Part shown: positions 14,538-32,740 of the stretch, piece by piece | Position numbering within the stretch: position 1 is the first letter of the stretch | Layout: each line of letters starts with the position of its first letter | Source of the DNA: Herbaspirillum seropedicae | Lineage (GTDB): Bacteria; Pseudomonadota; Gammaproteobacteria; Burkholderiales; Burkholderiaceae_D | Direction of reading: 5' to 3' | DNA length: 64,000 nt | Assembly (NCBI RefSeq): GCF_001040945.1 | Contig: NZ_CP011930.1 | Location: 992,001-1,056,000 of the forward strand | Translations under genes and position numbers: made by a program | The notes under the pieces: generated by a model | The model's database searches: none | Seen by the model: the letters and a program-made list of their open reading frames with translations, nothing else | What the model was told of the DNA's origin: nothing

Positions 14538-16208
14538 ATGCCTGAGCTTATCCCCGCGCCGCGCCAGCCGGACTATGCAGACGTCTATGCAGGATTTCGC
14601 ATCGAGACGCTGCGAGAGCAGTTTCAAGGAGACTTCGAGACCGGCATCAATGCCTGTGTCGAGTGCTGTGACCGGCATGTCAAGGGAGATAACATCGCCC
14701 TGGAGTTCGTCTCCCTGCATGGCGAGCATCAACAGTACAGTTTTGCGCAGGTACGCTCGATGGCGGCACGGGTGGCCAATCTGCTCAGGCAGCAAGGCAT
14801 CCAGCCGGGCCAGATCGTGGCCGGGATGCTGCCGCGCACGCCGGAGCTGTTGGCTACGGTGCTGGGCACGCTGCGCGCCGGCGCGGTGTACCAGCCCCTC
14901 TTTACGGCCTTCGGACCGAAGGCGATAGAACATCGGCTGGCGCTGAGCGGCGCCAGCCTGATCGTCACCAATGTGGCCAACCGGGATAAGCTCGATGAGA
15001 TTGCCAATTGTCCCCAAGTCTGCACGGTCAGGGAAAGCAACGATCCCCTGCGTGCCGGTGACATCGATTTCCGCGCTGCTGTGGACGCCCAGTCGGATGA
15101 CTTCGCGCCGGTCCTGCGCAGCGGCGCCGACCTGATGCTCATGATGTCCACCTCCGGCACCACGGGTGCGGCCAAGGGTGTGCCGGTGCCCTTGTCGGCG
15201 CTGCAGGCGTTCTCGGTCTACATGCGCGAGGCAGTCGGCTTGCTGCCGCAGGACAAATTCTGGAACATGGCCGATCCGGGCTGGGCCTATGGCCTCTATT
15301 ACGCGATCATCGGCCCGTTGGCCATCGGCCACGGCATCACCTTCAACGAAGCCGCATTTACCGTCAGCGGGACTTACGAGACCATCCGCCGCCTGGGTAT
15401 CACCAGCCTGGCCGGTGCGCCCACGGCCTATCGCATGATGATGGCCGCAGGCGAGGAGGCCGCCGCCAGTGTCAAAGGCAGGCTGCGCGCGGTCAGCAGT
15501 GCCGGTGAACCATTGAACGCCGAGGTGGTGCGCTGGTTCGCCAGCGCCCTGGATGTCCCCATCCATGACCATTACGGACAGACCGAGCTGGGCATGGTGG
15601 TCAACAACCATCACGCCTTGCGACATGAGGTCGTGCCAGGATCGGCCGGCTTTGCCATGCCAGGGTATCGCGTCGTGGTGCTCGACGAGAACCACCAGGA
15701 GCTTGGTGCGAACCAGCCAGGCGAGCTGGCCATCGACATCGCGAGATCGCCGCTGTACTGGTTTTCCGGTTACTGGAAGCAGGATACGCCTGCCATTGCC
15801 CACGGCTATTACTCCACTGGCGACAACGTCGAGCTGGAGCCCAACGGCAGCATCAGTTTCATTGGACGCTCCGACGATGTCATTACCTCGGCGGGCTATC
15901 GTATCGGGCCGTTCGATGTCGAAAGCGCACTGCTGGAGCACCCGGCGGTGGCTGACGTGGCCGTCATCGGCCTGCCGGACCCGGAGCGTACCGAGATCGT
16001 CAAGGCCTTCGTGGTCCTCTCGGACCAGTTCAAGGCCAGCGATGCATTGAGGGAACAATTGGCGCAACACGTCAAACGGCGTCTTTCCGCCCACGCCTAT
16101 CCACGCGCCATCGAGTTTCTCGACGCCCTGCCCAAGACGCCCAGCGGCAAGCTGCAGCGTTTCGTGCTGCGCAAGATGGAGGCGGACCGGCGCGCTGGCC
16201 ATCCCTGA
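14538..16208 (+). CDS. AMP-forming acyl-CoA synthetase
   Basis: A 556-residue member of the ANL superfamily, close to the acetyl/medium-chain acyl-CoA synthetase branch. The P-loop STSGTTGAAKG is at about 204-214, the adenylate motif HDHYGQTELG near 346-355, YYSTGDN near 423, and the catalytic lysine K538 in KTPSGKLQ. It would activate a carboxylic acid to its CoA thioester at the expense of ATP. It leads a four-gene operon (synthetase, SDR, thiolase, acyl-CoA dehydrogenase). Given the nitrile-degradation operon nearby, a short or branched acid released by the amidase is a plausible substrate. The ribosome-binding site is GGAG, 9 bases before ATG. Confidence 0.88.
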   Translation: MPELIPAPRQPDYADVYAGFRIETLREQFQGDFETGINACVECCDRHVKGDNIALEFVSLHGEHQQYSFAQVRSMAARVANLLRQQGIQPGQIVAGMLPRTPELLATVLGTLRAGAVYQPLFTAFGPKAIEHRLALSGASLIVTNVANRDKLDEIANCPQVCTVRESNDPLRAGDIDFRAAVDAQSDDFAPVLRSGADLMLMMSTSGTTGAAKGVPVPLSALQAFSVYMREAVGLLPQDKFWNMADPGWAYGLYYAIIGPLAIGHGITFNEAAFTVSGTYETIRRLGITSLAGAPTAYRMMMAAGEEAAASVKGRLRAVSSAGEPLNAEVVRWFASALDVPIHDHYGQTELGMVVNNHHALRHEVVPGSAGFAMPGYRVVVLDENHQELGANQPGELAIDIARSPLYWFSGYWKQDTPAIAHGYYSTGDNVELEPNGSISFIGRSDDVITSAGYRIGPFDVESALLEHPAVADVAVIGLPDPERTEIVKAFVVLSDQFKASDALREQLAQHVKRRLSAHAYPRAIEFLDALPKTPSGKLQRFVLRKMEADRRAGHP

Positions 16209-16256
16209 AACGCGCGGGTCGCGTTTGATTCAATCGAGAATAAGCGAGGAGAGACA

Positions 16257-17021
16257 ATGGCTGTAAAACAAGGTGTCTACGTCGTCACCGGCGCGGCTTC
16301 CGGACTGGGGGCGGCCACTGCCGAGCAGCTCATCAGGGCCGGCGCCAAGGTGGTTCTGGCCGATGTCAATCCGGTGGCCGGCGAAAAGATGCAGGCCACG
16401 CTCGGCGCCAATGCCCGGTTCGTGCTCACTGACGTCACCAGTGAGACCAGCGCGCAGGAGGTCTTTGGCGTTGCCAGCTCCATGGGGGCGGTGGTCGGGC
16501 TGGTCAACTGCGCGGGCATTGCTCCGGGGGAGAAGTTGCTGGGCAAGGGCGGCGTGCACCGACTGGACAGTTTCATGCGTGCACTCAACATCAACCTGGT
16601 GGGCTCGTTCAACATGGCGCGGCTGGCAGCGCAGCACATCAGCGCTGGCCCGGCCGACGCGACGGGCGAGCGTGGCGTCATCATCCACACGGCCTCGATT
16701 GCGGCCTTTGACGGGCAGATGGGGCAGGTGGCCTATGCCGCTTCCAAGGGCGGGGTGGTGTCGATGACCTTGCCGATGGCGCGCGAGCTGGCCCGCCATG
16801 GCATACGTGTCGTGACCATCGCACCCGGCATCATCGAAACGCCCATGATGCTGGGGATGCCGGAGGAAGTGCTGGAGTCCTTGAGCCGCAACGTACCCTT
16901 CCCACCCCGGCTCGGCAAGCCATCCGAATTTGCCGGCCTGGTCATGCATATCCTGGAAAACCGCTACCTCAACGGCGAGGTCATCCGCATGGATGGTGCG
17001 CTGCGCATGAGCGCCAAGTAA
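16257..17021 (+). CDS. SDR-family 3-hydroxyacyl-CoA dehydrogenase (HSD10-like)
   Basis: A 254-residue short-chain dehydrogenase. The NAD-binding TGAASGLG is at 11-18, the NCAG motif at 84-87, and the catalytic S147, Y160 and K164. The EKLLGKGGVHRLDSFMRALNINLVGSFNM stretch and the C-terminal EVIRMDGALRMSAK match type-2 3-hydroxyacyl-CoA dehydrogenases (17beta-HSD10 group). These oxidise short and 2-methyl-branched 3-hydroxyacyl-CoA, as in isoleucine breakdown. It is the second gene of the operon. Confidence 0.87.
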   Translation: MAVKQGVYVVTGAASGLGAATAEQLIRAGAKVVLADVNPVAGEKMQATLGANARFVLTDVTSETSAQEVFGVASSMGAVVGLVNCAGIAPGEKLLGKGGVHRLDSFMRALNINLVGSFNMARLAAQHISAGPADATGERGVIIHTASIAAFDGQMGQVAYAASKGGVVSMTLPMARELARHGIRVVTIAPGIIETPMMLGMPEEVLESLSRNVPFPPRLGKPSEFAGLVMHILENRYLNGEVIRMDGALRMSAK

Positions 17022-17099
17022 AGGAGCCCAGGCAGCCCAGGCAGATGTATGAACGAACAAGATACATGACATATCAATGAAGCTGCAAAGAGGAACAAC

Positions 17100-18302
17100 A
17101 TGTCCGAAGACCCGGTTGTGATTGTGTCGGCCGCCCGTACCGCGATGGGTAGCTTCCAGGGAGCCCTGGCTGATCTGCCGGCGCCACACCTGGGCGCCGT
17201 GGCGATATCGGCCGCCCTGCAACGTGCCCAGCTATCTGCTGCCCAGATCGCGCAGATCGAGCAGGTGTGGATGGGTTGCGTGCTGCAGGCAGGCCTGGGC
17301 CAGGCTCCCGCACGGCAGGCCGCCTTGCGTGCCGGTTTGCCGCAGACGGTAGCCTGCGCTACCTTGAACAAGGTCTGCGGCTCGGCCATGCAGGCCGTCA
17401 TGCTGGGGCATGACAGCATCCTGGCCGGTTCGGCGTCAATGGTGGTGGCCGGCGGCATGGAGTCGATGTCCAATGCCCCGTATCTGCTCCCCAAGGCCAG
17501 ACGGGGTTACCGGCTTGGGCACGACAGGTTGCTGGATCACATGTTCCTCGATGGACTGGAGGACGCCTATTCGGACCAGTATCGCGGTCGCCTGATGGGA
17601 ACCTTCGCCGAGGACTGCGCCAGCGAGTTCGGTTTCACCCGGGCCCAGCAGGATGCCTTTGCGGTCCAGTCCACCTTGCGCGCGCGCCAGGCGATCAGCG
17701 GCGGTGGCTTCGACTGGGAAGTGGTTCCTGTCGACGTGGCGGGAAAGAAGGGCAGCGTCGTGATCAGCCAGGATGAGGGGCCGATGGCGGTGAACCTGGA
17801 GCGCATCGCCACGCTCAAACCAGCCTTCAGTGTCGACGGCACGGTCACTGCCGCCAATTCCTCTTCCATCTCTGACGGCGCAGCGGCCTTGCTCCTCATG
17901 CGCGAATCGGCGGCGCTCAAGCAGGGCTTGACGCCCTTGGCCAGGATCCTGGGCCACGCCTCGTATGCCGGTGCGCCCGAGAAATTCCCCACTGCCCCCA
18001 TTGGCGTGCTGCGCAAGATATTCGCCAAGACCGGGCTGGATGCCGCCAGCACGGACCTGTTTGAAATCAACGAGGCATTTGCGGTGGTGCCCATGGCGGC
18101 CAGCCGGGAACTGGACATCGACATGGAGAAGATCAATGTCCACGGGGGCGCCTGTGCGCTAGGACACCCCATCGGTGCTTCCGGGGCGCGCATCATCGTG
18201 AGCTTGCTGGGAGCGCTCAAAGCACGCGGGCTCAAGACAGGCATCGCCAGTCTGTGCATCGGCGGCGGCGAAGCGACCGCCATCGCCCTGGAGCTGTCAT
18301 GA
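17100..18302 (+). CDS. Acetyl-CoA acyltransferase (thiolase)
   Basis: A 400-residue thiolase. The nucleophile is C93 in NKVCGSAMQAV, the histidine is H356 in ALGHPIGASG, and the second cysteine is C386 in SLCIGGGEA. NEAFAVVPMA is also present. It cleaves 3-ketoacyl-CoA with CoA to give acetyl-CoA and a shortened acyl-CoA; in a branched-chain pathway the second product would be propionyl-CoA. It lies 78 bases after the dehydrogenase gene and 36 bases before the acyl-CoA dehydrogenase. Confidence 0.92.
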   Translation: MSEDPVVIVSAARTAMGSFQGALADLPAPHLGAVAISAALQRAQLSAAQIAQIEQVWMGCVLQAGLGQAPARQAALRAGLPQTVACATLNKVCGSAMQAVMLGHDSILAGSASMVVAGGMESMSNAPYLLPKARRGYRLGHDRLLDHMFLDGLEDAYSDQYRGRLMGTFAEDCASEFGFTRAQQDAFAVQSTLRARQAISGGGFDWEVVPVDVAGKKGSVVISQDEGPMAVNLERIATLKPAFSVDGTVTAANSSSISDGAAALLLMRESAALKQGLTPLARILGHASYAGAPEKFPTAPIGVLRKIFAKTGLDAASTDLFEINEAFAVVPMAASRELDIDMEKINVHGGACALGHPIGASGARIIVSLLGALKARGLKTGIASLCIGGGEATAIALELS

Positions 18303-18338
18303 CGGTCGAGCACTGCTCGCATGAAGAAAGGTCGGGAA

Positions 18339-19487
18339 ATGTTGCTCAGTCCTGAACACGAGATGATCCGCGACGCTATGCGTCACTTTGCCCAGGAACG
18401 CCTGTTACCCTTTGCTGCGGACTGGGACAGAAATCATACCTTTCCCGCCGAGGCCCTGAAGGAACTGGCCGAGTTGGGCGCCATGGGCATGTGCGTGCCA
18501 GAGCAGTGGGGCGGCGCCGGAATGGATTACATGAGCCTGGTGCTGGCACTGGAAGAGATTGCCGCAGGCGACGGGGCGACTTCAACCATCGTCTCGGTCC
18601 AGAATTCACTGGCCTGTGGCATTACCGAGAAGTACGGGAGCCCGACCCAGAAAGAGCAATGGCTCAAGCCGTTGGCGCGCGGCGAGATGTTGGGCTGCTT
18701 CTGCCTGACCGAGCCGCATACCGGCTCGGACGCAGCAGCCATCAGGACCAGGGCCGAGCGCGATGGTGACGATTTCATCCTCAACGGGACCAAGCAATTC
18801 ATCACCAGCGGCAAGCACGCCGGGGTGGCCATCGTATTTGCCGTCACCGACAGGTCAGCAGGCAAGAAGGGCATCTCCTGCTTCCTGGTGCCGTGTGATA
18901 CGCCGGGCTTCGTGGTCGGACGCAGCGAAGAAAAGATGGGACAGCATGCTTCCGATACGGTCCAGATCATGCTCGACAACTGCCGTGTTCCTGCCACAGC
19001 CTTGCTCGGCAAGGAAGGCGAGGGCTATCGCATCGCCTTGTCCAATCTCGAGGCCGGCCGGATCGGCATTGCCGCGCAGAGCGTAGGCATGGCGCGCGCC
19101 GCCTTCGAGGCCGCCGTCAGCTATGCCCGGCAGAGGGAATCGTTCGGAGTCCCCATCATCGAGCACCAGGCCGTCAATTTCCGCCTGGCCGACATGAACA
19201 CCTTGCTGGATGCGGCCAGGCTCATGGTGTGGCGCGCCGCCCAGTTGAAGGATCAGGGACGTCCTTGCCTCAAGGAGGCCTCGATGGCGAAGATGTTCGC
19301 CTCCGAGGCCGCCGAGAAAATTGCCTCCGATGCGATCCAGATCCATGGCGGCGTCGGCTATACCAGCGACTTTCCGGTCGAGCGCATTTACCGTGACGTG
19401 CGCATCTGCCAGATCTATGAAGGGGCCAATGATATCCAGCGCCTGGTCATCGGTCGGGCCATCGCCAGCGATCAAGCGCATGCGTGA
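18339..19487 (+). CDS. Acyl-CoA dehydrogenase (short/branched-chain type)
   Basis: A 382-residue FAD enzyme. CFCLTEPHTGSDAAA (substrate/FAD loop) and the QIYEGANDIQRLVIGRAI C-terminus are standard; the catalytic base is E361 in YEGAND. The QIHGGVGYTSDFPVERIYRD segment is intact. An ATG at 18321 is possible, but the ATG at 18339 has an AAAGG ribosome-binding site 7 bases upstream. It introduces the alpha-beta double bond, passing electrons to ETF. An enoyl-CoA hydratase, needed to complete the spiral, is not in the operon. Confidence 0.92.
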   Translation: MLLSPEHEMIRDAMRHFAQERLLPFAADWDRNHTFPAEALKELAELGAMGMCVPEQWGGAGMDYMSLVLALEEIAAGDGATSTIVSVQNSLACGITEKYGSPTQKEQWLKPLARGEMLGCFCLTEPHTGSDAAAIRTRAERDGDDFILNGTKQFITSGKHAGVAIVFAVTDRSAGKKGISCFLVPCDTPGFVVGRSEEKMGQHASDTVQIMLDNCRVPATALLGKEGEGYRIALSNLEAGRIGIAAQSVGMARAAFEAAVSYARQRESFGVPIIEHQAVNFRLADMNTLLDAARLMVWRAAQLKDQGRPCLKEASMAKMFASEAAEKIASDAIQIHGGVGYTSDFPVERIYRDVRICQIYEGANDIQRLVIGRAIASDQAHA

Positions 19488-19582: not shown

Positions 19583-20506
19583 CTAGTGCGACAACAGGCT
19601 CTGCGGAGTACAGCCAAAGGCGGCGCGGAATACCCGGCTGAAGTGGGACAGATCGGAGAACCCGGCGTCCAGCGCCGCCGTGGTGACATTGCCGGCATTG
19701 CCTTCGGTGAGGGCGCGATAACTGGCTTGCAATCGCACCCGGCGCAGCACATCCATGGGAGTCTGGTTGTGCTGGGCGAAGGCGCGTGTCAGCGTTCTTT
19801 CGGAGACGTGGTGAGCTGCGGCCAGGACGTGGAGATTGAGTTGCGGGTCGGTATAGTTCTCTCGCAGATAGGCGAGAACACGTTTGTAGAGATCATTCTT
19901 TTCTGCCGCAGTTGTCCTGGCGCCGGGGGCGGCCAGGCTCAAGGCGAGCACGTCCAGCAAGGCGGCGCTATAGCGGACCGCCGACTCGGCATCGTTGAAT
20001 TCGCAAGTGCCTGCTTCTTCCAGCATCGAGCGCAGCGCCATCACACCGGGCCTGCGGGCGTCGATCAACTGCGCGGTCAGGTGTTCGGCTTCGGGACAGC
20101 GGCTCAACAATGACTTGCGTGGCAAGCGGGTCAGATAGATCTTCTCGGGGCCCAGTGCGAACTCGAAAGGGCGGGCGCCATCGTACAAGGCCATGTCACC
20201 CGATTGCAGGCGGGCCTGGCGCCCGTCCTGTGCCAGATAGGCTTCGCCGCTGACCATGAAGGCGAGCCACAGGTCGTCGTCGGGATTTGAACGAATATGG
20301 TGCGCATCACGTCGCCAATGGTGCAAGGGCGAACTCATGATGGCCATATCGACCATCCCGATGGAATTGACGGACATGGCGCCGTCGAAGACCGGTTCTC
20401 CCAACAGCTTGCTGTCTGCCTGGAGGCAATGACGACAGACGACATCATTCCAATACTCGAAGCGCCTTGGCGCTTCGACGATCTCAGTGGTGTATTGAGC
20501 CTTCAT
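19583..20506 (-). CDS. AraC-family regulator next to the nitrile/aldoxime operon (OxdR-like by context)
   Basis: A 307-residue regulator with an AraC-binding-like N-terminal domain (RFEYWNDVVCRHCLQ near residue 15; DDDLWLAFMVSGEAYLAQDG near 75-95) and a C-terminal double HTH (LHVLAAAHHVSERTLTRAFA; TTAALDAGFSDLSHFSRVFRAAFG). The ATG at 20506 has AGGAG 8 bases upstream, preferable to the GTG at 20515. In Pseudomonas chlororaphis an AraC-family protein, OxdR, activates the aldoxime dehydratase operon. This gene is a candidate for the same role, as is the one at 31688. Confidence 0.85.
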   Translation of the reverse strand: MKAQYTTEIVEAPRRFEYWNDVVCRHCLQADSKLLGEPVFDGAMSVNSIGMVDMAIMSSPLHHWRRDAHHIRSNPDDDLWLAFMVSGEAYLAQDGRQARLQSGDMALYDGARPFEFALGPEKIYLTRLPRKSLLSRCPEAEHLTAQLIDARRPGVMALRSMLEEAGTCEFNDAESAVRYSAALLDVLALSLAAPGARTTAAEKNDLYKRVLAYLRENYTDPQLNLHVLAAAHHVSERTLTRAFAQHNQTPMDVLRRVRLQASYRALTEGNAGNVTTAALDAGFSDLSHFSRVFRAAFGCTPQSLLSH

Positions 20507-20974
20507 AAGGGGCACTCCTGATCTATCGAGTCGATGCAGACATGCTGGCTGATGACCGGGCTGGCGAATGAGCTTGGCTGGCTGGTTTCGTGCAGCATTG
20601 TGGCTGCTGGAAGACCGATCCCCGGTAGCAAAGTATCCGCCAGATGAACGCGCAAGGGCAATAGAATTTCATGCATCGCTGCCAATGGCGCTACATATTT
20701 TGTGCAAAATTTATGCCTGCCTCAGGAGATTCGGACAAGCTGCGCTGATGGAGGAATCTGATCGAGGCTTGCGTACACTTCACGACCGTAGATCGCCCGG
20801 AAAGCAGCCAGGGCAGAGCGTTTTCAGCGCAGCGAAGAAAATGCTGGCAGGTGAGGGCGGCGTGGTTCCAGGCAGTGCCCAGCATATTGCTCAGGGCGAA
20901 AAAAAACCACTGGGTGGATCACCCAGTGGTCTTGCCGATGCCCCGTCGGTTGACCGGCTCGGGGGTGTTTCTGC
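20507..20974. other. Intergenic region with palindrome and terminator
   Basis: The gap holds the leader of the AraC gene, an ATTTTG/CAAAAT palindrome at 20697-20710 (2-base spacer) and the operon terminator listed separately. I see no supported gene in it. Confidence 0.4.
20898..20930 (-). terminator. Terminator of the aldoxime/nitrile operon
   Basis: An 11-bp perfect stem (20906-20916 with 20920-20930) encloses a 3-base loop. On the minus strand it is followed by a run of eight T. It lies 45 bases past the aldoxime dehydratase stop. Confidence 0.88.
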
Positions 20975-22049: not shown

Positions 22050-23291
22050 TCAATGCAAAGTGGTACTGGCGCGCTCGTCGAACGCGGCCGCACCGTATAG
22101 CTGCGCCCAGGCATCCGGACCGGCTTCGATTTCGGTGGTGGTAAGCAGGCAGGCGTCGAGCTCCTCGGTCAGCAAGTCCCCATCGATGCCTTGGCCGATG
22201 AAGACCAGTTCCTGTCGGCAGTCGCCCGCCAATGCGTCCCACTTTTCCTGGATGCCTTGCCGGCGATAGGTGTCCTGCGGCCATTGGGCCGGCTCGATGA
22301 AACGCCACCAGCGGCCCACGAAGCCCCACTGGAACTGGCCGCCGGTCTGGACCAGCAGGGCAATGTCGGAATATCTGCTGGAGATCCAGAGATAGCCTTT
22401 GCAGCGCAGCAGGCGGCCATTGCGCCAAGGACGTCCGAGCCAGTCCAGCAGGCGGCCGGGATGAAAGGGCAGTCGTGCGCGATAGACGCTGGAAGAGATG
22501 CCGTAGGTGTCGGCCTCGGAAGGCGGGTGGGCGCCATCCATGGTCTGCATCCATCCTGGCATGCGGGCCAAGCTGGGCAGATCGAACAGTCTGGTATCGA
22601 GTACCTGATCCAGATCGACCTCGCCGTGCGCCATCGGCAGAATCCGTGCAGTCGGATTGAGCTTCTGCAGCACTGCCTTGAGCGAGGCGAAGGCGCTGGC
22701 GTCGATCAGGTCGACACGGCTGACCAGGATCACGTTGGCATACTCGACCTGCTCGATGAGCAGGTCGGAAAGCGGGCGCGTGCTGGCGCCATCGGCCTGG
22801 GCAATGGCGACGTGGTCAGCCAATTGCTGTTCGAACGTCTCGCCGTTGACCACCGTGACCAGTGTGTCCAGTCGCGCCAGCTCGCTCAGGCTGAAACCAT
22901 CGCTGTCGAGAAATGCAAAGGTTTCCGCCACCGGAATGGGCTCGGAAATGCCGGTCGATTCGATCAGCAGATAATCGAAACGGCCCGACCTTGCCAGTGC
23001 GCTGACCTGCTCCAGCAAGTCGGCGCGCAAGGTGCAGCAGATGCAGCCATTGCTCATCTCCACCAGTTCGTCATTGCCGCGGTAGAGTTCGGTATTGCGC
23101 CGTACATCGTCGCCATCCATGTTGACTTCGCTCATGTCGTTGACGATGACCGCCACTTTCATTCCTGCCCGGTTGCGCAGGATATGGTTGAGCAAGGTGG
23201 TCTTGCCAGATCCGAGAAATCCCGATAACACCGTCACCGGGATCCTCTGCGCCTGAGCATTGAGCAATACCTCGGGCGCCGGTTCGTTCAT
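22050..23291 (-). CDS. CobW/P47K-type GTPase, nitrile hydratase activator
   Basis: A 413-residue metallochaperone GTPase of the COG0523 family. The P-loop GFLGSGKTT is at 24-32, the metal-binding GCICC motif at 82-86, and a C-terminal CobW_C domain follows. Fe-type nitrile hydratase needs such a protein to insert iron and allow cysteine oxidation. The gene overlaps the beta-subunit gene by 4 bases (ATGA), so it is co-translated with its client. A longer open frame to 23378 lacks support. Confidence 0.9.
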
Positions 23292-23947
23292 GCGCGTCCA
23301 CCTTGTTGCGGCGCCTTGTCCAGATAGCCTTCGAACAGGTCGACCACCACGAAGCCATCGTCGCAGGCATCGCCCCACACATCGCGGTTACTGAACTGGA
23401 CGTGATAGGTCGGCTGCATGGCGGCGCTCTTGTCGCCGTGGCCGATGGTGTCGGGGAAGGGCCATTGTTCGGTGGTACGGTGCAGCACCACGCCTTCCTT
23501 GCCGCGAACATAGCCTGGGCAGCGGATATGGCCGGTGACACGTTCGTCGCGCACCAGGACGCGGTCGCCCACTTCAAAGGGCGGACGGCCGGTGATGGCG
23601 GGGCGGCCCTTGGATTGTGCGGGGCGGGCCAACTGGAAGTGGGAACCCAGCGCCTCGTCGAGTTCCTGCTGGGTGAGCACGCCTAGCTCCACCAGCAGCG
23701 ATGCGGTAGCGATGACATAGCGCTCGTAGTACTGGGTGTTGGCTTGCTGGCGGAACTCGATGCGTTCCACCGCGTGACGCACTTCGTCCACGCTGTAGAG
23801 CTTCATGTGATCGGCGCCCAGGAACATCAAGGTATAGGCCAGGTGTTCCCAGTCCTGCTTGAAGACCTTCTTGTAATCGAGGCTGTTGATGGTGTGCGGA
23901 ATCCGGCCGAAGCCTTGAACACCGCCGAGGTCGTGAAAGCCATCCAT
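23288..23947 (-). CDS. nthB: Nitrile hydratase beta subunit
   Basis: A 219-residue beta subunit. [16 protein letters not shown] at the start, the W-rich [11 protein letters not shown] helix, the [14 protein letters not shown] linker and the C-terminal SH3-like barrel ([35 protein letters not shown]) are all typical. The protein caps the metal site of the alpha subunit, with conserved arginines contacting the oxidised cysteines. It is the middle gene between alpha subunit and activator. Confidence 0.94.
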
Positions 23948-24008: not shown

Positions 24009-24608
24009 TCAACCGACCTTGGGCAGGGCCACACCGATGAGCACGTCCTTGGTGATGAGCTTGCTGAGCGCCTCTTCACTCCAGCCTTCGGTGCCGGCCG
24101 GACGCATCGGCAGCACCAGGTAGCGGGTCTCGGCGCTGGTGTCCCAGACTTTCACCGTCATGTCCTTGGGCAGTTCGGTGCCGAGCTCGGCGAGCACCGT
24201 GCGTCCCTCGCGCACCAGGCGGGCGCGGAATTCGAAGCCCTTGTACCACTCCGGCGGCAGGCCCAGTACCGGCCAGTTGGTGCAGGAGCAGAGGCTGCAG
24301 ACGATCACGTTCTTGAGTGTGGGCGTGTCTTCCAGCGCCACGATGTATTCGCCCTGCGGGCCGGTGTAGCCGAACTCTTCGCAGGCGGCCGTGCCGTCAC
24401 GCAGCAGCAGTTCGCGGTATTGCGGGTCGCTCCAGGCCTTGGCCACCACGCGGGCGCCATTGGCCGGGTCGAACTTGTTGGCCAGCAGATCGGTCAGGCC
24501 TTCGATGTAGCCTTCCGGGATCAGCTTCTTGTCGTTGAGAACCTTGAAGAGCGCCCAGGCCCGTTCACCGGGGGTGGATGTCTGTGCGGAAGAGGATGGA
24601 TTGCTCAT
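24009..24608 (-). CDS. nthA: Nitrile hydratase alpha subunit, Fe-type
   Basis: A 199-residue catalytic subunit that hydrates nitriles to amides. The metal claw is VCSLCSCT at 103-110 (C104, C107, S108, C109). A serine after the first cysteine (CSLCSC) is the signature of the iron enzymes, while cobalt enzymes have CTLCSC. This fits with the P47K-type activator encoded downstream. The ATG at 24608 has AGGAG upstream and gives a normal length; the frame extends to 24668 without support. Confidence 0.95.
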   Translation of the reverse strand: MSNPSSSAQTSTPGERAWALFKVLNDKKLIPEGYIEGLTDLLANKFDPANGARVVAKAWSDPQYRELLLRDGTAACEEFGYTGPQGEYIVALEDTPTLKNVIVCSLCSCTNWPVLGLPPEWYKGFEFRARLVREGRTVLAELGTELPKDMTVKVWDTSAETRYLVLPMRPAGTEGWSEEALSKLITKDVLIGVALPKVG

Positions 24609-24678
24609 GATTTGTTGACTCCTGGCTTGAAAATGCGGGGTGGGAAAAAATGCCTTTAGGAACTTCACGAAAGAAACA

Positions 24679-26193
24679 TCAGTGCTGCTGCCAATCCATG
24701 CTGGCCTCGAAGGCCGCCGCTGCCTGGTAGAGCGTGGCTTCGGCGTAGTGTTTGCCGACCAGCATCAATCCCACCGGCAAGCCGTCGACCGTGCCACAGG
24801 GAATGGACATGGCCGGGTGGCCGGTGATGTCCAGCGGCGCGGTATTGCCAATCATCTCGAAGGCGCGCGCGACGTACTCGGCCAGGGGACAGCCCGCGGC
24901 CGGCAATGGCTGCGCGATGATGGGGACGGTGGGCATGACCAGCAGATCGAAATCAGCCAGCGCCTTGTCGTAGCCGGCGCGTGCGCGTCGGGCGATGTTC
25001 TGGGCCTTGGCGTAGAAGCGACCCTGATACCGGGTCAGCCCGTATTGGCCGACGAACATGCACAGCTTGAGCGTGGCCGACAGATCGTCGGCATGTTCAC
25101 GCCAATGGGCGTGGTGCTGCAGGAGGCCAAGGTCGTAGAGCCCCTTCCAGTTGAAGCCCATGCCGTTGCCGTGCATCATCTGCATGGTCAGGCCTTCGCA
25201 GCCGATGGGCTGCCAGAGCGCACCGGCCAGCGCATGTTCCTCGACCGATACGGTAGCCACGGATGCTCCCAGTTTTTCCAGTTGGGCAATCGCCTCCTGC
25301 ACCTTGTCTGCCACCCGCTTATCCATGTTGCCCAGGGCAAATCCTTCGGTGAGGATGCCGATCTTCAGGCCACGCACGCCACGATCGAGCGCTGCGGTAT
25401 AAGGCTGCACCTCGGGTGCATATTGGCGCGGATCGAGTCCGTCGGCGCCGGCGATGACCTCAAGCATCAGGGCGTTGTCGCGCACGTTGGCGGTGATCGG
25501 TCCCACATGGTCGACCGTCGCTTCGATGGGCATGACGCCGGTATAGGGAACCAGGCCATGCGTGGCCTTCATGCCATAGGTGCCGCAGAAGGCTGAGGGA
25601 ATGCGGATCGAGCCGCCCTGGTCGCCACCGATGGCCATGTCCGCTTCGCCTGCCGCCACCAGCGCCGCACTGCCCGATGAGGATCCGCCGGAACCATAGC
25701 CATGGCGGCGCGGATTGTGAACCGGCGCGGGATCGGAGGTATGGCTGCCGCCCGACAGGCAGAAATGCTCGCAGGTCGCCTTGCCCAGAATGGTGGCGCC
25801 GGCATCGAGCAGGCGGGTCACGATGGTGGCGTCATAGCTCGGCACGAAGCCTTCCAGCGTGGAAGAGCCGTTCATCATCGGCACGCCTGCCAGGGCCACA
25901 TTGTCTTTGAGCACCACGGTGCGGCCCGCCAGCTTGCCCTCGGCGGCGCCCTTGACGGTGCTTTTGCAGGCCCAGGCGTTGAGTGGATTGTCCTTGGCTG
26001 CCGGTCGGGCGGCAGCCGAGCGCGGATATTTGACGGCGGGAATTTCATCGGGCAAGCCATCGATGACATCGTAGGCATCGAAGCTTGCCTGCATCAAGTC
26101 CAGGTATTGACTGGCCTGCTCCGTGGTGAGCTGGATGTGCAGAGAGCTGGCGAGCTCCTTGAGTTGCTCTGGGGTGGGTCGGACGATAGACAT
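24679..26193 (-). CDS. Amidase (amidase-signature family, nitrile operon)
   Basis: A 504-residue amidase that hydrolyses the amide made by nitrile hydratase to acid and ammonia. The Ser-cisSer-Lys triad reads K96 (VVLKDNV), S171 (GSGGSSSGS) and S195 ([12 protein letters not shown]), at the same positions as in the Rhodococcus enantioselective amidase. The N-terminal helical extension of about 70 residues is normal for this subgroup. The ATG at 26193 has AGGAG 10 bases upstream. It is the promoter-proximal gene of the leftward operon. Confidence 0.93.
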
Positions 26194-26646
26194 GAAATTC
26201 GCGCTCCTGTATTTCGAATGCACCGCAGAGGTGCATTGCACTGCAATGGGAAGGTCAGCATCGGCAGTCCGCAAGCTCCTGGCGGCCACCGCGCATCGCT
26301 ATCATTGGCGAGCGTCACTGTTACTGCTTGTCCTTACAGGTCATTCGTTTGTCATTTGCGGACAAGTCAGCCAGGTGTCGTGAGGAAAAATGAGAAATCG
26401 TTTACGTATTTCTGTCTGTGCGTTCTGCAAGCCAGGAAGGGCGCGACAGGTACGCAATCCACGTCAAGGCCGACGCGGGAAATATCGGTTTTCAAAATGT
26501 CTTGTTATGGCAAGTACCTTGGCCTGATTTGACGAGTCAGGCGGGCTTCGCCTCTTTATCTTTTCATCACCGTCGGAACGGTGCTGGCGTGTGACAACGC
26601 CTGTCCGGAAAACGGCGATTCCATCCATATGAAAAGAGAGGACAAG
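26194..26646. promoter_or_regulatory. Divergent control region of the nitrile operon and channel gene
   Basis: This 453-base gap holds the promoters of the amidase operon (left) and the outer-membrane channel gene (right). CTTGTCC (26327-26333) and GGACAAG (26360-26366) form an inverted repeat. Between them, TCATTCGTTTGTCATTTGCG (26341-26360) closely matches a sequence at 31342-31359 in another divergent promoter of the island. This is a candidate AraC-type operator. Confidence 0.5.
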
Positions 26647-27558
26647 ATGAACATGAACCTGAAATCCGGGCCCCGTTTCGCCTCATTGCGAACGGTCCTA
26701 TTCTCCATTGCCGTTGCCTTGGCGATGGGCGTGATGGCCGACGCTTGTGCCATCGATGTCGATCCGGCAGATTATGTGCCGGCCCCCGCTGGCACCACCG
26801 CCGGTCTGCTCTACCAGCAGCATGCCGAACGCGACGCCAGCTACAGCAGTGGTAACCGCAATCCTGGCAATCCTTTGCTGACCTCCGATGTGACCATCCT
26901 GCGCCTGGTGCATTACATGAACATCGGCGGCTATACCGTGGGTCCCCAGGTGCTGCTGCCCTTCGCCAGTCTGCGCAGTGGCCGCGACATCAAGGCGCTG
27001 GGCAGTGAGAACGCCCTGGGTGACCTGATCCTGGCCGCGCCTGTGTGGCTCGTCAACGATCCTGCAAAATCGACCTTCTTTGCGGTGGCCCCGTATCTCT
27101 ACCTGCCCACCGGATCGTATTCCGACAGTCGCGCGCTCAATGTTGGCGAGAACCGCTGGAAGTTCGATCTGCAAGCGGGTCTGGTCCAGCGGATATCCGG
27201 TCCCTTGTATCTCGACCTGACCGGCGACGTCATGGTCTTTGGCAAGAACAACGACTATGGAAGTGGTCGCGGCAGTATGCGCCAAGCACCGCTTTATCAA
27301 TTGCAGTCCTATCTGCGCTACCAGTTTTCCGCCACCACCAACGCCACTGCGGGGCTCTCGCGTACCTGGGGCGGTGAGACCCGCGTCAATGGCGTGGACA
27401 ACCACGACCAGCCCAATCAGTTGAAGATTTCCTTTGGTGGCAGCACCTTCGTGGCGGCCAAGACGCAGATCATGGGCAGTATCGGTCGCGACTTGTCGGT
27501 GGACAATGGATTCAAGGAAAACTTCCGTCTGAACCTGCGGTTGCTGCAGATCTTCTGA
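26647..27558 (+). CDS. Outer-membrane channel-like protein, phenol-degradation MetA family
   Basis: A 303-residue exported protein: a signal peptide (hydrophobic about 14-30, ending ADACA) and a beta-rich body. VDPADYVPAPAGTTAGLLYQQ, YLYLPTGSY and the C-terminal NFRLNLRLLQIF with terminal phenylalanine fit the Phenol_MetA_deg family of outer-membrane barrels found in aromatic and hydrocarbon operons. The AGAGGA ribosome-binding site selects ATG 26647. It diverges from the nitrile operon and probably helps uptake of the same hydrophobic substrates. It is a clear paralogue of the protein encoded at 28883-29833. Confidence 0.82.
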   Translation: MNMNLKSGPRFASLRTVLFSIAVALAMGVMADACAIDVDPADYVPAPAGTTAGLLYQQHAERDASYSSGNRNPGNPLLTSDVTILRLVHYMNIGGYTVGPQVLLPFASLRSGRDIKALGSENALGDLILAAPVWLVNDPAKSTFFAVAPYLYLPTGSYSDSRALNVGENRWKFDLQAGLVQRISGPLYLDLTGDVMVFGKNNDYGSGRGSMRQAPLYQLQSYLRYQFSATTNATAGLSRTWGGETRVNGVDNHDQPNQLKISFGGSTFVAAKTQIMGSIGRDLSVDNGFKENFRLNLRLLQIF

Positions 27559-27984: not shown

Positions 27985-28467
27985 TCAAGGTTTGGGCCAG
28001 GTGATGCCTACACTTTTCATTCCCTTGGCCACATCCATTTCCGGATGGGCCAGCACGACGTCGCGGTAGGATGGGCTGCCGATGACCGCGGGCTTGAACT
28101 TGGTCAGAAAGGCCGTGACTTCTTCCCGGATATCTGCAGGCACTGCGAAGTTGTCGTAGCATTCGTCCATGCATTCCATCACTGCTTGCCAATGAACTTC
28201 AGTGAGGCCCATGCCACGGTGTGCGGTCACCATGTCGCGTCCTCTGTATTGTGCATTTCCACCCCAGTGGACCGACAGGAAATCGACAAAATTGATGTGC
28301 TCTTTCTGGAAGGTGGATTCCGACATGTGGCTCCAGATATGACCTATGGCTGGGTGTTTCATACAGGTCCGCAGCACTTCTCCTGCAAACTTGTAGATCG
28401 CGTCGTAGCCTCCCAGACGTTCGTAGAGGGAAGGCTGTTGAGGCTCGGATGCTTGGCTGTCAGCCAT
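27985..28467 (-). CDS. Truncated haemoglobin
   Basis: A 160-residue globin of the 2-on-2 type. SLYERLGGYDAIYKFAGEVL at 13-32 is the group I N-terminal signature, and VTAHRGMGLTEVHW at 80-93 carries the proximal haem histidine H83. It has an extra C-terminal tail of about 35 residues. The ATG at 28467 has GGAG upstream. Truncated globins bind O2 or NO. Placement among genes for haem- and iron-dependent nitrogen chemistry suggests NO or nitrite handling or redox protection, but this is inference. Confidence 0.85.
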   Translation of the reverse strand: MADSQASEPQQPSLYERLGGYDAIYKFAGEVLRTCMKHPAIGHIWSHMSESTFQKEHINFVDFLSVHWGGNAQYRGRDMVTAHRGMGLTEVHWQAVMECMDECYDNFAVPADIREEVTAFLTKFKPAVIGSPSYRDVVLAHPEMDVAKGMKSVGITWPKP

Positions 28468-28882
28468 GTTATCGCTTCTCCATGTTGATGTGATTCCTGG
28501 TGGCCCGGCGGGGAGGAAAATCTTTTCCAGATCCAGTCGGGGCATACGCAAGCGATGACGTCCGCGTGAATACAACGAACAAGCTTGCCGTGTCCAATGT
28601 AGCGACGACGGTTCATTGCAGCTTGCTTCTGAGGGTCAATCAACTTGACGGAAATAGACAACGTCGCAGATCGTTGTGCGAATTGATGCCCTTCACCCGG
28701 GGTGACTGGTTTCCCAATTCAACACGAGAACGACTTGGAGTCTGCGGTTAGAAAAAAGCCTCTGCAAACTATTGTGGTGTCAGGTATCAGCCCACTGAGG
28801 CCTGTCCCGCTTCAAGTCTCAACTTGAAGCGGGACAGATCAGCCGCAACGTCGCAGCTCTCTGGACCTTTTCTTGCTGCTGC
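28468..28882. other. Intergenic region
   Basis: No gene is supported. A perfect 16-bp inverted repeat near its right end is listed separately. Confidence 0.4.
28802..28837. terminator. Perfect 16-bp hairpin after the second channel gene
   Basis: CTGTCCCGCTTCAAGT (28802-28817) and its exact reverse complement (28822-28837) enclose a CTCA loop. It sits 45 bases beyond the stop of the leftward channel gene. There is no T-run, so termination would be structure-driven; it could equally be a repeat element or mRNA stabiliser. Confidence 0.55.
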
Positions 28883-29833
28883 TCAGAAGACTCGCAACAG
28901 CCGCAAATTGATGCGAGCGTTTTCCTTGAAACCATTTTGTACATAAAGGTCACGGCCGATGGCGCCCAGCAGTTGTGTTTTGGGGCCAATGAACCAACTG
29001 CCGCCTATGCTCGCCTTGCGCTGGCGCGCTTCATCATTGCTGGCGACACCATCGACCCGTGTTTCTCCGCCCCAGTTCTGCGACAGACCGACGAAGATAT
29101 TGGCGACAGGCGTGAACTGGTAGCGCAGGTAAGCTTGGCCCTGGAAGAGAGACTTCTGCCTCTGGGTCGCGCCGTTGCTGCCATAGTCGTTGTTCTTGCC
29201 ATAGAACATGACGTCCCCGGTCAGGTCGAGGTACCATTTTTCGGTGAATCCCTTCACGAAGCCGACCTGCAGATCGAACTTCCAGCGGTGTTCACCCAGG
29301 TTAAGCGCACGGTTGCGGTCATAGCTGCCGGTGGGCAGGTACAGGTAGGGGGCGATGCCAAGATAGGTACGGGATGCGGCGTCATTGAGCGGCCAGAACG
29401 GCGCGGCCAGGATGATGTCGCCTACTCCACTGGTCTGCCCCAAAGGAGCCGTATCGCGCCCGGCGTCAAGCCGCCCGAAAGGCAACAGAACCTGCGGGGC
29501 AAAAGCCAGGCCGCCGATGCTGGTGTAGTGCACCAGTCTGGCGATGCCGATATCTGACACCAACCTGGGATTGAGCGCGGCTTTCTGGCCCTTCGTGTAA
29601 AGACTGTCACGCTCGGCGTGTTGGTAGTAAAGCAGACCTACCGTCGTGCCTCCTGGCGCCGGGACAAAGTCGCCGATATCCACATCGATAGCGTGTGCTG
29701 CCACGGGAAACATCACGACCAGCGACAACGCTGCCAGCGCTAGCATTTTTCTTGCGGCAGGCATACGCGAATTGAGCCAAATCCTGGACAACCGGGACGC
29801 CGGGCAGGGGCAGTGGGGAAGTATTGTTTTCAC
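28883..29833 (-). CDS. Outer-membrane channel-like protein, phenol-degradation MetA family (paralogue 2)
   Basis: A 316-residue exported barrel protein closely related to the one at 26647: AIDVDIGDFVPAPGGTTVGLL, YLYLPTGSYDRNRALNLGEH, DLTGDVMFYGKNNDYGS and NARINLRLLRVF at the C-terminus. The GTG at 29833 has an AGAGG ribosome-binding site 7 bases upstream but gives a long basic leader. ATG 29764 would give a more ordinary signal peptide (MLALAALSLVVMFPVAAHA). It lies downstream of the flavoprotein gene on the same strand, so the two are likely co-transcribed. Confidence 0.8.
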   Translation of the reverse strand: MKTILPHCPCPASRLSRIWLNSRMPAARKMLALAALSLVVMFPVAAHAIDVDIGDFVPAPGGTTVGLLYYQHAERDSLYTKGQKAALNPRLVSDIGIARLVHYTSIGGLAFAPQVLLPFGRLDAGRDTAPLGQTSGVGDIILAAPFWPLNDAASRTYLGIAPYLYLPTGSYDRNRALNLGEHRWKFDLQVGFVKGFTEKWYLDLTGDVMFYGKNNDYGSNGATQRQKSLFQGQAYLRYQFTPVANIFVGLSQNWGGETRVDGVASNDEARQRKASIGGSWFIGPKTQLLGAIGRDLYVQNGFKENARINLRLLRVF

Positions 29834-30005: not shown

Positions 30006-31253
30006 TTATCCTCGTGCTTCAGCTGAGGCCATCGCGTCGTATTCCTTCGAACGCAGCAATGTGTGCAGCTGGCGACGGCGTACTCCCATGTTGCCGCCGT
30101 CATAAAGGGGGAAGCAAAGCGCGTCCTGCATCAAGCCGGCCAGAGGGTAGAGGTCTGTATATGCATCGACGCCGACGACGCGCATTGCGTCATATACCAC
30201 TTGCACGCATAGTTCCGAGCAGTAGGTTTTGGTGATGATCGCCAGCTCGCGGCTTCGGCCTTCGGTCAGATCCAGTTGATGACAGGACTTCCAGGTCAGG
30301 TAGCGGGCGGCCTCGATGCGCATCTTGATATCGGCCAGCATGAAGCCGACGTTCTGGTGTTCGATTACCGGTATGGTGCCGGAGCGTCGGTCGCTTTGCG
30401 CAAACCTCAGCGCGATATCGAAGGCGGTGCGCATCACCCCCACGCAGGCAGAACCGATCAGTGCCGCTGTCCATGAAAAGGCAGCTTCCAGCATGGAGAT
30501 CCCATCGCCGGGCTTGCCCACGATGTTCGACGCGGGCACTCGCACATTGTTGAAGTGCACGCGTGGCGAGATCGTCGCACGATGCCCCATGGTATCGAGC
30601 AGACCGACGATCTCGATGCCCGGCGCATTGCCTGGCACCATGATCACCGCCAGTGACTGCTGTGGCGGCAATGCGGGATCAGTGCGGCAAATGACGCTAT
30701 ACAGATGCGCGCCCTTGCCATCCCAGCCGGTGCCATTGGTGGTGTAGTGCTTGGCGCCATTGATGACCCATTCGTCGCCTTCCAGGCGGGCAAAAGTTTG
30801 CACTCCCACGGACGGATCGGTGCTGTCGTAGTTGGCGCCGCCAGTGACCTCGGTGAAGGCTAGTGCGGCCAGACGTGAACCATCTTCGATGAAGTCCGGC
30901 AAGAAGCGCTGTTTCTGCTCCGGTGTTCCATGATGCACGACCGCATGTAAGCCCAGGCCCGTTCCCAGCAGCGCCGAAGGGACGTTCACATCCACGGCGG
31001 TGAGCTCCTCCGCAGCCAAGGCGAAGTCCAGGGTGCTGAGCGCCGTGCCGCCGAATGACTCCGGCAGCAGCGCCTTGATGAAGCCGGCATCGGCCATGGC
31101 CTGGTAGAACGGTCGCGTCGCGTAGAAGCGTTCGTCCGGCTTGACCAGCGGCGTGATGGTGGGCCCGACCTTGCGCAAGACGTCGGCAGCGAAGGCGCGC
31201 GCCCCTGCCTGCAAAGCCTTCTGGGATTCAGAGAGTTGAAAATCGATGGACAT
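30006..31253 (-). CDS. Acyl-CoA-dehydrogenase-fold flavoprotein, probable nitroalkane oxidase
   Basis: A 415-residue member of the acyl-CoA dehydrogenase superfamily. The usual catalytic YEG motif is replaced by LYDGGNMGVRRR (383-394). Nitroalkane oxidase of Fusarium oxysporum uses Asp402 and Arg409, seven residues apart. Here D385 and R392 have the same spacing, and S260 may correspond to Ser276. The FTEVTGGANYDSTD loop also departs from the acyl-CoA type. Such an enzyme oxidises nitroalkanes to aldehydes plus nitrite. The neighbourhood of aldoxime and nitrile genes makes nitro or N-oxidised substrates likely. An ordinary acyl-CoA dehydrogenase remains possible. Confidence 0.7.
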   Translation of the reverse strand: MSIDFQLSESQKALQAGARAFAADVLRKVGPTITPLVKPDERFYATRPFYQAMADAGFIKALLPESFGGTALSTLDFALAAEELTAVDVNVPSALLGTGLGLHAVVHHGTPEQKQRFLPDFIEDGSRLAALAFTEVTGGANYDSTDPSVGVQTFARLEGDEWVINGAKHYTTNGTGWDGKGAHLYSVICRTDPALPPQQSLAVIMVPGNAPGIEIVGLLDTMGHRATISPRVHFNNVRVPASNIVGKPGDGISMLEAAFSWTAALIGSACVGVMRTAFDIALRFAQSDRRSGTIPVIEHQNVGFMLADIKMRIEAARYLTWKSCHQLDLTEGRSRELAIITKTYCSELCVQVVYDAMRVVGVDAYTDLYPLAGLMQDALCFPLYDGGNMGVRRRQLHTLLRSKEYDAMASAEARG

Positions 31254-31687
31254 GGAGAAATTCCTATTTTGCAGTGTTGACGGGAAAAGCGAGACTCATC
31301 CTAGAGAACAGGATTGGTGTGGTCTCGCCGGCTTGTGCAACATCGTTTGTTCATTTGCGCAAGCCCCAACGCTTGCTGAAGAGGGGGGAATAGTGAATTG
31401 CTGGCATGAACCTTGCGACTGCCCGGGTCGACGCTGGCAAAGCCCAGCCTGAGTCGATGCGACTACCGGCTCTGGTGCATCTGACGGCACCAGCAAGAAG
31501 CGCGCGCCGCTGTGCATCCCCAGTGTGGGGCGAACGTCGCCTACGGCGTGGCGACGATGCGTCAGGTCTCTGCCAAGTTGACTTTTCGTGCAAGGCCTAC
31601 TTGACTACTTGTGCAATGAAGCGAGAACTCAAGGCGTGTTCGGGCATCCACCGCGCACGCACCGGACGTCTCGAGGGGATGGCTGCA
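31254..31687. promoter_or_regulatory. Divergent control region of the flavoprotein and AraC gene
   Basis: GCTTGTGCAA (31331-31340) and TTGCGCAAGC (31355-31364) form an inverted repeat (9 of 10) with a 14-base spacer. The spacer and right arm, CATCGTTTGTTCATTTGCG, closely match 26342-26360 in the nitrile-operon promoter. This is a candidate shared AraC-type operator. No gene is supported here; in-frame extensions of the AraC gene through this region are unlikely. Confidence 0.5.
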
Positions 31688-32740
31688 ATGAAACTTTGGT
31701 CTACTCAATCTCGCGCGCAGAATGAGCGCTTCAGCTACTGGCGAGAGGTATTGTGCGAGGCATTCGTCTCACTCAATCCCATCCTTAATGAAAAGCATAC
31801 GGTTATTGATTTTGCGGGAGAGGTGAGTTCACGGTCACTCTCGACGACTGCGCAGACGCGCGTGTTTTCCAAGGCGCAACACATTCAGCGACGCGGAGAG
31901 GAGATCCGCCGCAATCCGGTCGAGTACTGCTTTGCGAATTTCCAGCTGGAAGGCTCATGCGTAGTGCGCCAGGATGGCCAGGAAAGCATGGTACTTCCCG
32001 GCGACTTCTCCATCGTCGATAGCACCCGCCCCTACTTCCTAGATTACCAAGGGGACTGGCATGTGCTCTCGTTCCGCATCCCCAGGGAGCAAGTGATCTC
32101 CAGGCTGGCCTCACCCTACAAGGCTACAGCACGTCGGGTGGACGGCAAAGCGGGCATGGGACTGGTGGCATCGCGTTTTGCCCGTTCGCTTGAGCAAGTG
32201 GATCTGGACATGGGTAGCGGCGTACAGGACTGTCTCAGCGCCGCGCTCAACAGCATCATCGCCATCGCGCTGGGCGCCACGCTGGAGGCTCAAGAGCGCG
32301 ACCGACTCCCTGTGCGTGAGGCCATTCGCCTGGCCGTCGAGACCTACATCCGCGACCACCTGGAAGAGCCTCACCTTGGGCCGGACATGCTGGCCTCGCG
32401 CTTCAAGGTTTCGCGCCGCACGCTGTATAGCCTGTTCGAGGAGGCGCCGCTCTCTGTCAGTAGCCTGATCCGGGAATTGCGCCTGCAACGCAGTGCGCGT
32501 GATCTGCTAAGTCCTGGTCACCCCGGCGTGCTCGCCGTGGCGTTGCGCTGGGGATTCAGCGATGCATCCCACTTTTCCCGATTGTTCAAGCGACGCTTCG
32601 GCGTCTGTCCGCGCGAGTTTGCGGACTTCACACTCAAGGGGGGCTTAGATGCGGGGAACGGCGGGGCATTCTCCGTGTCATCCTTGGATGCCACGCTTGG
32701 TGCAGGACACCCATCGCCTTTCAGCATGACTCGCCCTTAA
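31688..32740 (+). CDS. AraC-family regulator divergent from the nitroalkane-oxidase-like gene
   Basis: A 350-residue regulator with an AraC-binding-like N-terminal domain (NERFSYWREVLCEAFVSL; DGQESMVLPGDFSIVDSTRPY) and a C-terminal AraC HTH (LASRFKVSRRTLYSLFEE; AVALRWGFSDASHFSRLFKRRFGVCPREF). GAGGGG 9 bases before ATG 31688 picks that start over upstream in-frame ATGs. It ends with a low-complexity tail of about 35 residues. It probably regulates the flavoprotein operon and, through the shared motif, perhaps the nitrile operon. Confidence 0.85.
   Translation: MKLWSTQSRAQNERFSYWREVLCEAFVSLNPILNEKHTVIDFAGEVSSRSLSTTAQTRVFSKAQHIQRRGEEIRRNPVEYCFANFQLEGSCVVRQDGQESMVLPGDFSIVDSTRPYFLDYQGDWHVLSFRIPREQVISRLASPYKATARRVDGKAGMGLVASRFARSLEQVDLDMGSGVQDCLSAALNSIIAIALGATLEAQERDRLPVREAIRLAVETYIRDHLEEPHLGPDMLASRFKVSRRTLYSLFEEAPLSVSSLIRELRLQRSARDLLSPGHPGVLAVALRWGFSDASHFSRLFKRRFGVCPREFADFTLKGGLDAGNGGAFSVSSLDATLGAGHPSPFSMTRP

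Follow-up and report, generated by a model that had tools for sequence, protein, structure and literature searches.

The minus-strand gene at 30006..31253 of the window (the whole stretch of DNA analysed here, 64,000 nucleotides) very probably encodes, to judge from its sequence, a bacterial nitroalkane oxidase (NAO), an identity supported by sequence rank, active-site residues, phylogeny and gene context. For enzyme and module together, the best explanation is a bacterial NAO within a self-contained unit of regulator, NAO and outer-membrane protein, and we regard this as likely. The linkage of NAO with aldoxime genes is real and recurrent, but not fixed. The features on the NAO side of the window are these:

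30006..31253, minus strand: putative nitroalkane oxidase of the acyl-CoA dehydrogenase fold, 415 residues, with D385, R392, T262 and T172 (from the open reading frame, the structure-sequence search, the alignment and the tree)
31406..32740, plus strand: divergent AraC-family regulator, FeaR-like (179 bits to the FeaR model, cut-off 199), upstream of the NAO gene and 152 bp from it
28883..29833, minus strand: outer-membrane protein OMP2, PF13557 family, downstream of the NAO gene on the same strand; its GTG start was picked by comparison with genome G116
28802..28837, no strand: inverted repeat, perfect over 16 bp and with a loop of 4 nt, that separates the NAO-OMP2 unit from a globin gene

The NAO reading frame lies on the minus strand, from an ATG at 31253 to 30006; read in frame 1 of the plus strand, the same interval contains several stops. 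The Pfam acyl-CoA dehydrogenase N, M and C domains all score above cut-off in the protein, and a scan against NCBIfam returned no model above cut-off. Among all solved structures, the seven distinct sequences ranked highest in a search with the protein are NAOs, of which two are natural enzymes and the others variants. The leading matches are 3mkh (E 8.5e-83), which we take to be the Podospora NAO, and 2c0u (E 3.6e-77), which like 2c12 is presumably the Fusarium oxysporum NAO, followed by MCAD (E 1.1e-46). Thus, the E-value lead over MCAD is 36 orders for the best NAO and about 30 for the Fusarium ones. The window NAO is 39% and 38% identical to the fungal NAOs versus 27% to the window's own acyl-CoA dehydrogenase.

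Its C-terminal run, ...FPLYDGGNMGVRRRQLH, contains D385 and R392. In a MAFFT alignment with the Fusarium chain (2c0u), D385 corresponds to residue 402 and R392 to residue 409, as an earlier note on this DNA had proposed, and T172, T262 and F381 correspond to Ser171, Ser276 and Tyr398. We take Asp402 of the Fusarium enzyme to be the catalytic base, in place of the Glu base of acyl-CoA dehydrogenases, Arg409 to be an active-site residue, and Ser276 to sit beside the Asp. The spacing of D385 and R392, which the same note had used as an argument, is undiagnostic, because ordinary acyl-CoA dehydrogenases also have Arg at +7 from the acid. One example is that of the window itself (18321-19487), which reads YEGANDIQR, with +7 from E to R. 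Spacing was thus set aside as proof of an NAO, and the retained Arg409 equivalent (R392) is not discriminating either. What DISCRIMINATES is Asp for Glu, the run GGNxGxRRR and an inserted GWD close to residue 177; all three are absent from the 35 ordinary acyl-CoA dehydrogenase rows of the alignment. The Glu base of the YEGT-type motif, the mark of an acyl-CoA dehydrogenase proper, is absent from the window NAO, which has Asp in YDGGN instead; the claim that the catalytic Glu motif is replaced is indeed correct. In a larger alignment, all 23 rows of at least 55% identity have Asp at the catalytic position, and all 23, which are bacterial, have Thr at the Ser276 position, where the window NAO has Thr262. 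At the Ser171 position (Thr172) the Podospora enzyme likewise has Thr. Like the Podospora and Fusarium NAOs, the window protein has the fold, the Asp402/Arg409 pair, the DGGNxGxRRR run, the GWD insertion and a place in the common clade; unlike them, it is bacterial, has Thr at the Ser276 position, adjoins a FeaR-like regulator and is only about 38-39% identical to them.

The phylogeny agrees with this picture. A contig scan for relatives, made with a common pattern, listed 80 loci, among which 7 are close NAO relatives (at least 39% identity). A 50-row tree, into which 40 of these 80 loci were taken and from which the partial row L023 was dropped, joins the query with the fungal NAOs in a 12-row group (99/98). 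That group lies inside a 15-row group that is split from 35 ordinary acyl-CoA dehydrogenases (100/100), so the alignment and phylogeny that the earlier note had proposed as a check put the protein outside the ordinary enzymes. A quick second tree, from a different thinned set of 51 rows, gives the same picture; in it the NAO of genome G1002, the closest outside the window's genus, stands beside the NAOs of that genus (SH-aLRT 94).

Counted with strict thresholds and, in large searches, with only some candidates per genome scored, NAO homologues are present in 3/195 genomes of the window's family (all in the window's own genus), 1/300 of its order (the window's own genome) and 4/398 of the phylum, own genome included. 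The same counts give 33/146 genomes in the genus of G796 (E 1e-100), 2/249 in the order of G796 and 1/18 in the family of G1002. The remark that bacterial NAOs are few is consequently right for the window's family, order and phylum, for the order of G796 and for the family of G1002, but fails for the genus of G796. NAO is also present in 20 plasmid records. Sixteen of these 20 records name the protein merely 'acyl-CoA dehydrogenase family protein'.

Among the 27 NAO loci at about 55% identity or more, 24 have a FeaR-like regulator no further than 450 bp away, the three exceptions being a MAG, a contig that ends inside the gene and the Rhodococcus JS3073 plasmid. Across 60 NAO-family loci, which are not independent (33 come from one genus, 3 from the window's genus, and 5 are near-copies from A. 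vitis/Allorhizobium), such a regulator is present within 8 kb in 52 and within 500 bp in 44. It is present at 0/35 ordinary acyl-CoA dehydrogenase control loci, which were chosen for their flanks among 73 listed and come from other, partly archaeal, taxa. A better control is the one inside the same 60 stretches: 44 FeaR-like matches fall in the 59.5 kb within 500 bp of NAO versus 9 in the 884 kb at 501-8000 bp, an approximately 70-fold higher density. The FeaR-type model (NCBIfam NF007243) is the best-scoring one for the NAO-side regulators scanned; unlike FeaR proper, 9/9 of the regulators scanned fall below the FeaR cut-off of 199 bits.

Within 8 kb of the window NAO, neither an aldehyde dehydrogenase nor a nitrite reductase was found. 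Elsewhere, an aldehyde dehydrogenase lies within 280 bp in 6/60 NAO loci versus 0/35 controls. The six loci are in Pimelobacter, Shinella, two Rhodococcus, Novosphingobium and G840, and the Novosphingobium match is short and lies beside insertion-sequence genes. Five of the 60 loci have a PF13557-type protein near NAO, and one has a nitrite reductase. The latter is on a Shinella plasmid, where nirB-nirD-cysG lies about 6 kb from NAO, together with an aldehyde dehydrogenase, a PF13557 protein and an acyl-CoA operon; the 21 kb of this plasmid that were analysed gave no Oxd (aldoxime dehydratase) match. This context of a FeaR-like regulator, some aldehyde dehydrogenases and one nitrite reductase fits a nitrite-releasing chemistry, as predicted for an NAO. 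The best model for the aldehyde dehydrogenases of Pimelobacter and Rhodococcus USK13 is StyD, and for those of Shinella and Rhodococcus JS3073 aminobutyraldehyde dehydrogenase, in each case below cut-off. The StyD and FeaR likeness makes phenylacetaldehyde a possible product, among others. Other neighbours also occur: on A. vitis/Allorhizobium plasmids, a DMSO-reductase-family molybdenum enzyme, a ferredoxin, an FAD oxidoreductase and MoaA are near NAO, and in G1198 an 82% identical molybdenum enzyme lies 3.9 kb from NAO (stretches L210:12901-17779 and L147).

On the other side of the inverted repeat, the window carries the following features:

27985..28575, minus strand: group 1 truncated haemoglobin, which sits with the aldoxime module in genome G129
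26581..27558, plus strand: outer-membrane protein OMP1, 57% identical to OMP2, at the edge of the aldoxime module
24679..26289, minus strand: amidase (profile matches)
24009..24668, minus strand: nitrile hydratase alpha (profile match)
23288..23947, minus strand: nitrile hydratase beta (profile match)
22050..23282, minus strand: CobW-type GTPase, likely the nitrile hydratase activator, by analogy with the clusters of PMC8955678
20975..22024, minus strand: aliphatic-type aldoxime dehydratase OxdA (NCBIfam NF050090, 659.9 bits, cut-off 600)
19583..20515, minus strand: second FeaR-like AraC regulator (127.6 bits to the FeaR model), of the aldoxime module
14538..19487, plus strand: operon of acyl-CoA synthetase, HSD10-type SDR, thiolase and acyl-CoA dehydrogenase, collinear with an operon near NAO on the Shinella plasmid
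13375..14424, minus strand: AraC-type regulator divergent from the acyl-CoA operon, 56% identical to the Shinella one

The adjoining aldoxime/nitrile operon of which the earlier note spoke is confirmed, with aldoxime dehydratase (Oxd), both nitrile hydratase subunits, the CobW-type GTPase and the amidase all in place. The aldoxime-nitrile clusters of Pseudomonas chlororaphis B23 and Rhodococcus likewise contain Oxd, nitrile hydratase subunits, a P47K activator and an amidase (PMC8955678). Unlike those clusters, the one in the window adjoins an NAO module, and the word "nitroalkane" is absent from the main text of that paper. The truncated haemoglobin was considered as a member of the NAO module, for nitrite/NO handling, and was rejected because in G129 the globin accompanies the aldoxime module and not NAO. 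It adjoins the aldoxime module here and in G129, but no globin was found beside that module in the stretches of G059 and G872. As a guess, it might perhaps handle NO or nitrite, or protect the haem enzyme OxdA.

The NAO and aldoxime genes of the window do not form a single operon. This arrangement is ruled out by the separate regulators, by the inverted repeat between the two sets of genes and by the sister genomes. Among 34 genomes of the window's genus, NAO is present in 3 and Oxd in 8; in 5 of these 8 the Oxd is at least 50% identical. Both modules are present in G129, with every gene that was sought matched, but they lie 2.44 Mb apart; G116 has the regulator, NAO and OMP2, and Oxd was not found there; G059 and G872 have the aldoxime module, and NAO was not found in either. 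Thus, NAO and aldoxime genes are distinct modules that lie together in the window, where each has its own FeaR-like regulator and its own outer-membrane protein. The inverted repeat is only a possible terminator, since no T run follows it on the minus strand. In addition, G872 carries (L112, G872:C22:230001-248000) a second OxdA, 50% identical, adjoined by a FeaR-like regulator and a PF13557-type protein; its 18-kb stretch has no nitrile hydratase or amidase match.

Outside the genus, however, the linkage recurs. An NAO lies within 8 kb of an aldoxime dehydratase in three loci: the window (7985 bp), G1002 (166 bp) and the Agrobacterium tumefaciens plasmid pAtAF1_95 (2376 bp). In G1002, which belongs to another class, about 11 kb contain a PF13557 protein, CbtA, a FeaR-like regulator, NAO (76%), OxdA (67%), an AraC protein, an amidase and nitrile hydratase alpha; the match to nitrile hydratase beta has one stop in the translation as taken. 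The CbtA-type cobalt transporter of this cluster (L143:7519-8277) would fit a cobalt-type nitrile hydratase. The Agrobacterium plasmid has NAO (68%), a FeaR-like regulator, an AraC protein, the aldoxime dehydratase, an ABC importer and an amidase, and the gene orders of the two loci differ. The G1002 NAO is nearest that of the window (76%, versus 66% to Agrobacterium), whereas its Oxd is nearest that of Agrobacterium (78%, versus 67% to the window). Because these similarities are discordant, the two partners seem, by this comparison of sequences, to have different histories. Since the G1002 NAO is the closest outside the window's genus, a linkage that was once shared, with a later exchange of Oxd, may also be compatible with the data. 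The earlier note's single locus must therefore be read as separate modules, apart in sister genomes, while the linkage it pointed to is borne out by its recurrence in G1002 and on the Agrobacterium plasmid.

How much this recurrence means is a matter of weighing. The window protein could be a true NAO whose place beside the aldoxime operon is due to chance, the two modules being unrelated and having separate regulators and inducers; this disputes the coupling only, and it is a serious contender that we would nonetheless not quite back. The regulator and PF13557 protein that each module has for itself, the repeat at 28802-28837, the 2.44 Mb in G129, the NAO alone in G116 and the Oxd alone in G059 and G872 are all as such a reading would have it. 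So is the genus of G796, in which no Oxd was found within 8 kb of NAO in any of 33 stretches (covering 36 of its 40 NAO matches). Co-occurrence by genome in that genus is weak, with Oxd in 27/33 genomes with NAO versus 70/113 without (p = 0.037), and for the 68%-type NAO alone (7/11 with Oxd, p = 1) it is not above expectation. Among plasmid records, 20 have NAO (E 1e-70), 17 have Oxd (E 1e-60) and 4 have both, one pair being 2.4 kb apart and three, all of A. vitis, separated by 67, 67 and 167 kb along the shorter arc. The surroundings were looked at for 13 of the 20 NAO records; for one of the 13, the JS3073 plasmid, which is without annotation, this was by scan only.

Against chance speak the two linked loci outside the genus, with their different gene orders and discordant similarities, and the two outer-membrane proteins of the window, which are paralogues. 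With the window's genus left out, Oxd is near NAO in 2/10 lineages at 55% identity or more, giving a binomial probability of 0.0004 to 0.016 at a chance rate of 0.3% to 2% per lineage, which is a rough guess, or 0.003 to 0.09 when counted over 25 loci. This test is weakened because catabolic genes cluster anyway. On balance, the prospect that the coupling of NAO with the aldoxime module is more than chance falls just short of even.

A second question is whether the enzyme acts on nitroalkanes. In the 50-row tree, the fungal NAOs are not direct sisters of the query; four bacterial rows group with them, and in three of these the catalytic position is occupied by Ser (one row) or Glu (two rows). 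In the larger alignment, three tandem pairs of the wider clade each include a copy with Gly at this position; a single row (L022) has Ser there and three (L012, L025 and L217) have Glu. The presence of members with Glu, Ser or Gly means that the clade is not uniformly NAO. The tandem pairs belong to the genus of G796 (L165:8417-10936, L170:9432-11941 and L162:8105-11478); one copy keeps Asp, and the other, which has Gly in place of the catalytic residue and Ala where the Fusarium enzyme has Ser276, is a possible candidate for a non-catalytic partner. An NAO-like flavin oxidase or dehydrogenase that keeps the Asp/Arg pair and acts on a carbon acid other than a nitroalkane would be in keeping with this variety, with the roughly 38-39% identity to the fungal NAOs and with Thr at the Ser276 position. 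It is nevertheless an unlikely reading, given that rank, motif and tree all make NAOs its closest relatives of solved structure, and that the aldehyde dehydrogenase in some relatives and the nitrite reductase in one fit the conversion of a nitroalkane to aldehyde and nitrite. An ordinary acyl-CoA dehydrogenase with a drifted active site would share the fold and the Pfam domains, but it is highly improbable in view of the phylogeny, the lost Glu base, the 36-order E-value gap and the FeaR-like regulator adjoining most close relatives.

From the observed sequence, residues, phylogeny, neighbourhoods and recurrence, we infer the reaction, substrate, regulation and physiological coupling of the bacterial NAO as follows. 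By analogy with the fungal enzyme, D385 would take a proton from the carbon beside the nitro group. The carbanion would then attack flavin N5, nitrite would leave and hydrolysis would yield the aldehyde, while reoxidation of the flavin by O2 would produce H2O2. For fungal NAO, a review (PMC3509576) describes a nitrobutane adduct bound covalently to flavin N5. The divergent FeaR-like AraC regulator would control the NAO gene, and OMP2, which may admit the substrate, is probably encoded on the same transcript. In other bacteria, the module appears to be extended, by an aldehyde dehydrogenase in some and by a nitrite reductase once. Here, it lies beside what is predicted to be a complete aldoxime-nitrile-amide-acid module, and the two together would let the cell use aldoximes, nitriles and nitro compounds that belong to a single N-oxidised family, probably plant-derived and aliphatic or arylalkyl.

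The acyl-CoA operon gives the best hint that the nitroalkane and aldoxime branches would meet in one acid. The Shinella operon (AraC/acyl-CoA synthetase/SDR/thiolase/acyl-CoA dehydrogenase) is collinear with that of the window and 56-64% identical to it, and because the operon is near NAO on the Shinella plasmid and beside Oxd in the window, G129 and G059, it may serve both. The hint rests on collinearity, since acyl-CoA synthetases are common near acyl-CoA dehydrogenases (11/35 control loci). The SDR of the operon resembles type II 3-hydroxyacyl-CoA dehydrogenases, and the second match of the acyl-CoA synthetase, below cut-off, is MbcS, which we take to be methylbutyryl-type. This likeness is consistent with, but not proof of, a branched short-chain acid, and the OxdA type together with the acyl-CoA operon would point to aliphatic chains. 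Tentatively, the whole can be seen as a modular bacterial kit for plant N-oxidised volatiles. One branch would lead from aldoxime through nitrile to amide, the other by way of nitroalkane oxidase to an aldehyde; each would have its FeaR-like switch and, often, a PF13557 protein for uptake. Both would deliver into the same operon for branched short-chain acyl-CoA, and NirBD would recover the nitrite. Plasmids and chromosomal moves would re-mix the modules, the window being one of three loci found with both.

Within the limits of the library searched, no paper was found in which nitroalkane oxidase is paired with aldoxime. Plants can emit such compounds together. Induced Erythroxylum releases benzyl cyanide and phenylnitroethane along with 2- and 3-methylbutyraldoxime (PMC5050915). 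Nicotiana benthamiana that expresses maize CYP79A61 emits phenylacetaldoxime, benzyl cyanide and 2-phenylnitroethane, although emission of aldoximes, nitriles or nitro compounds was not detectable from the maize cultivar itself (PMC4446944). With both modules, a bacterium could make use of this entire set of plant volatiles.

Fungal NAOs are classic flavoenzymes; to our knowledge, their natural role is unclear. The bacterial NAO family described here is well supported and its context is informative, and many further candidate NAOs are among records named 'acyl-CoA dehydrogenase family protein'. A bacterial NAO clade with a conserved regulator, some aldehyde dehydrogenases, one assimilatory nitrite reductase and three aldoxime-nitrile loci provides a testable setting for the role of the enzyme. 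The setting proposed is the use of plant aldoximes, nitriles and nitro volatiles that are emitted together.
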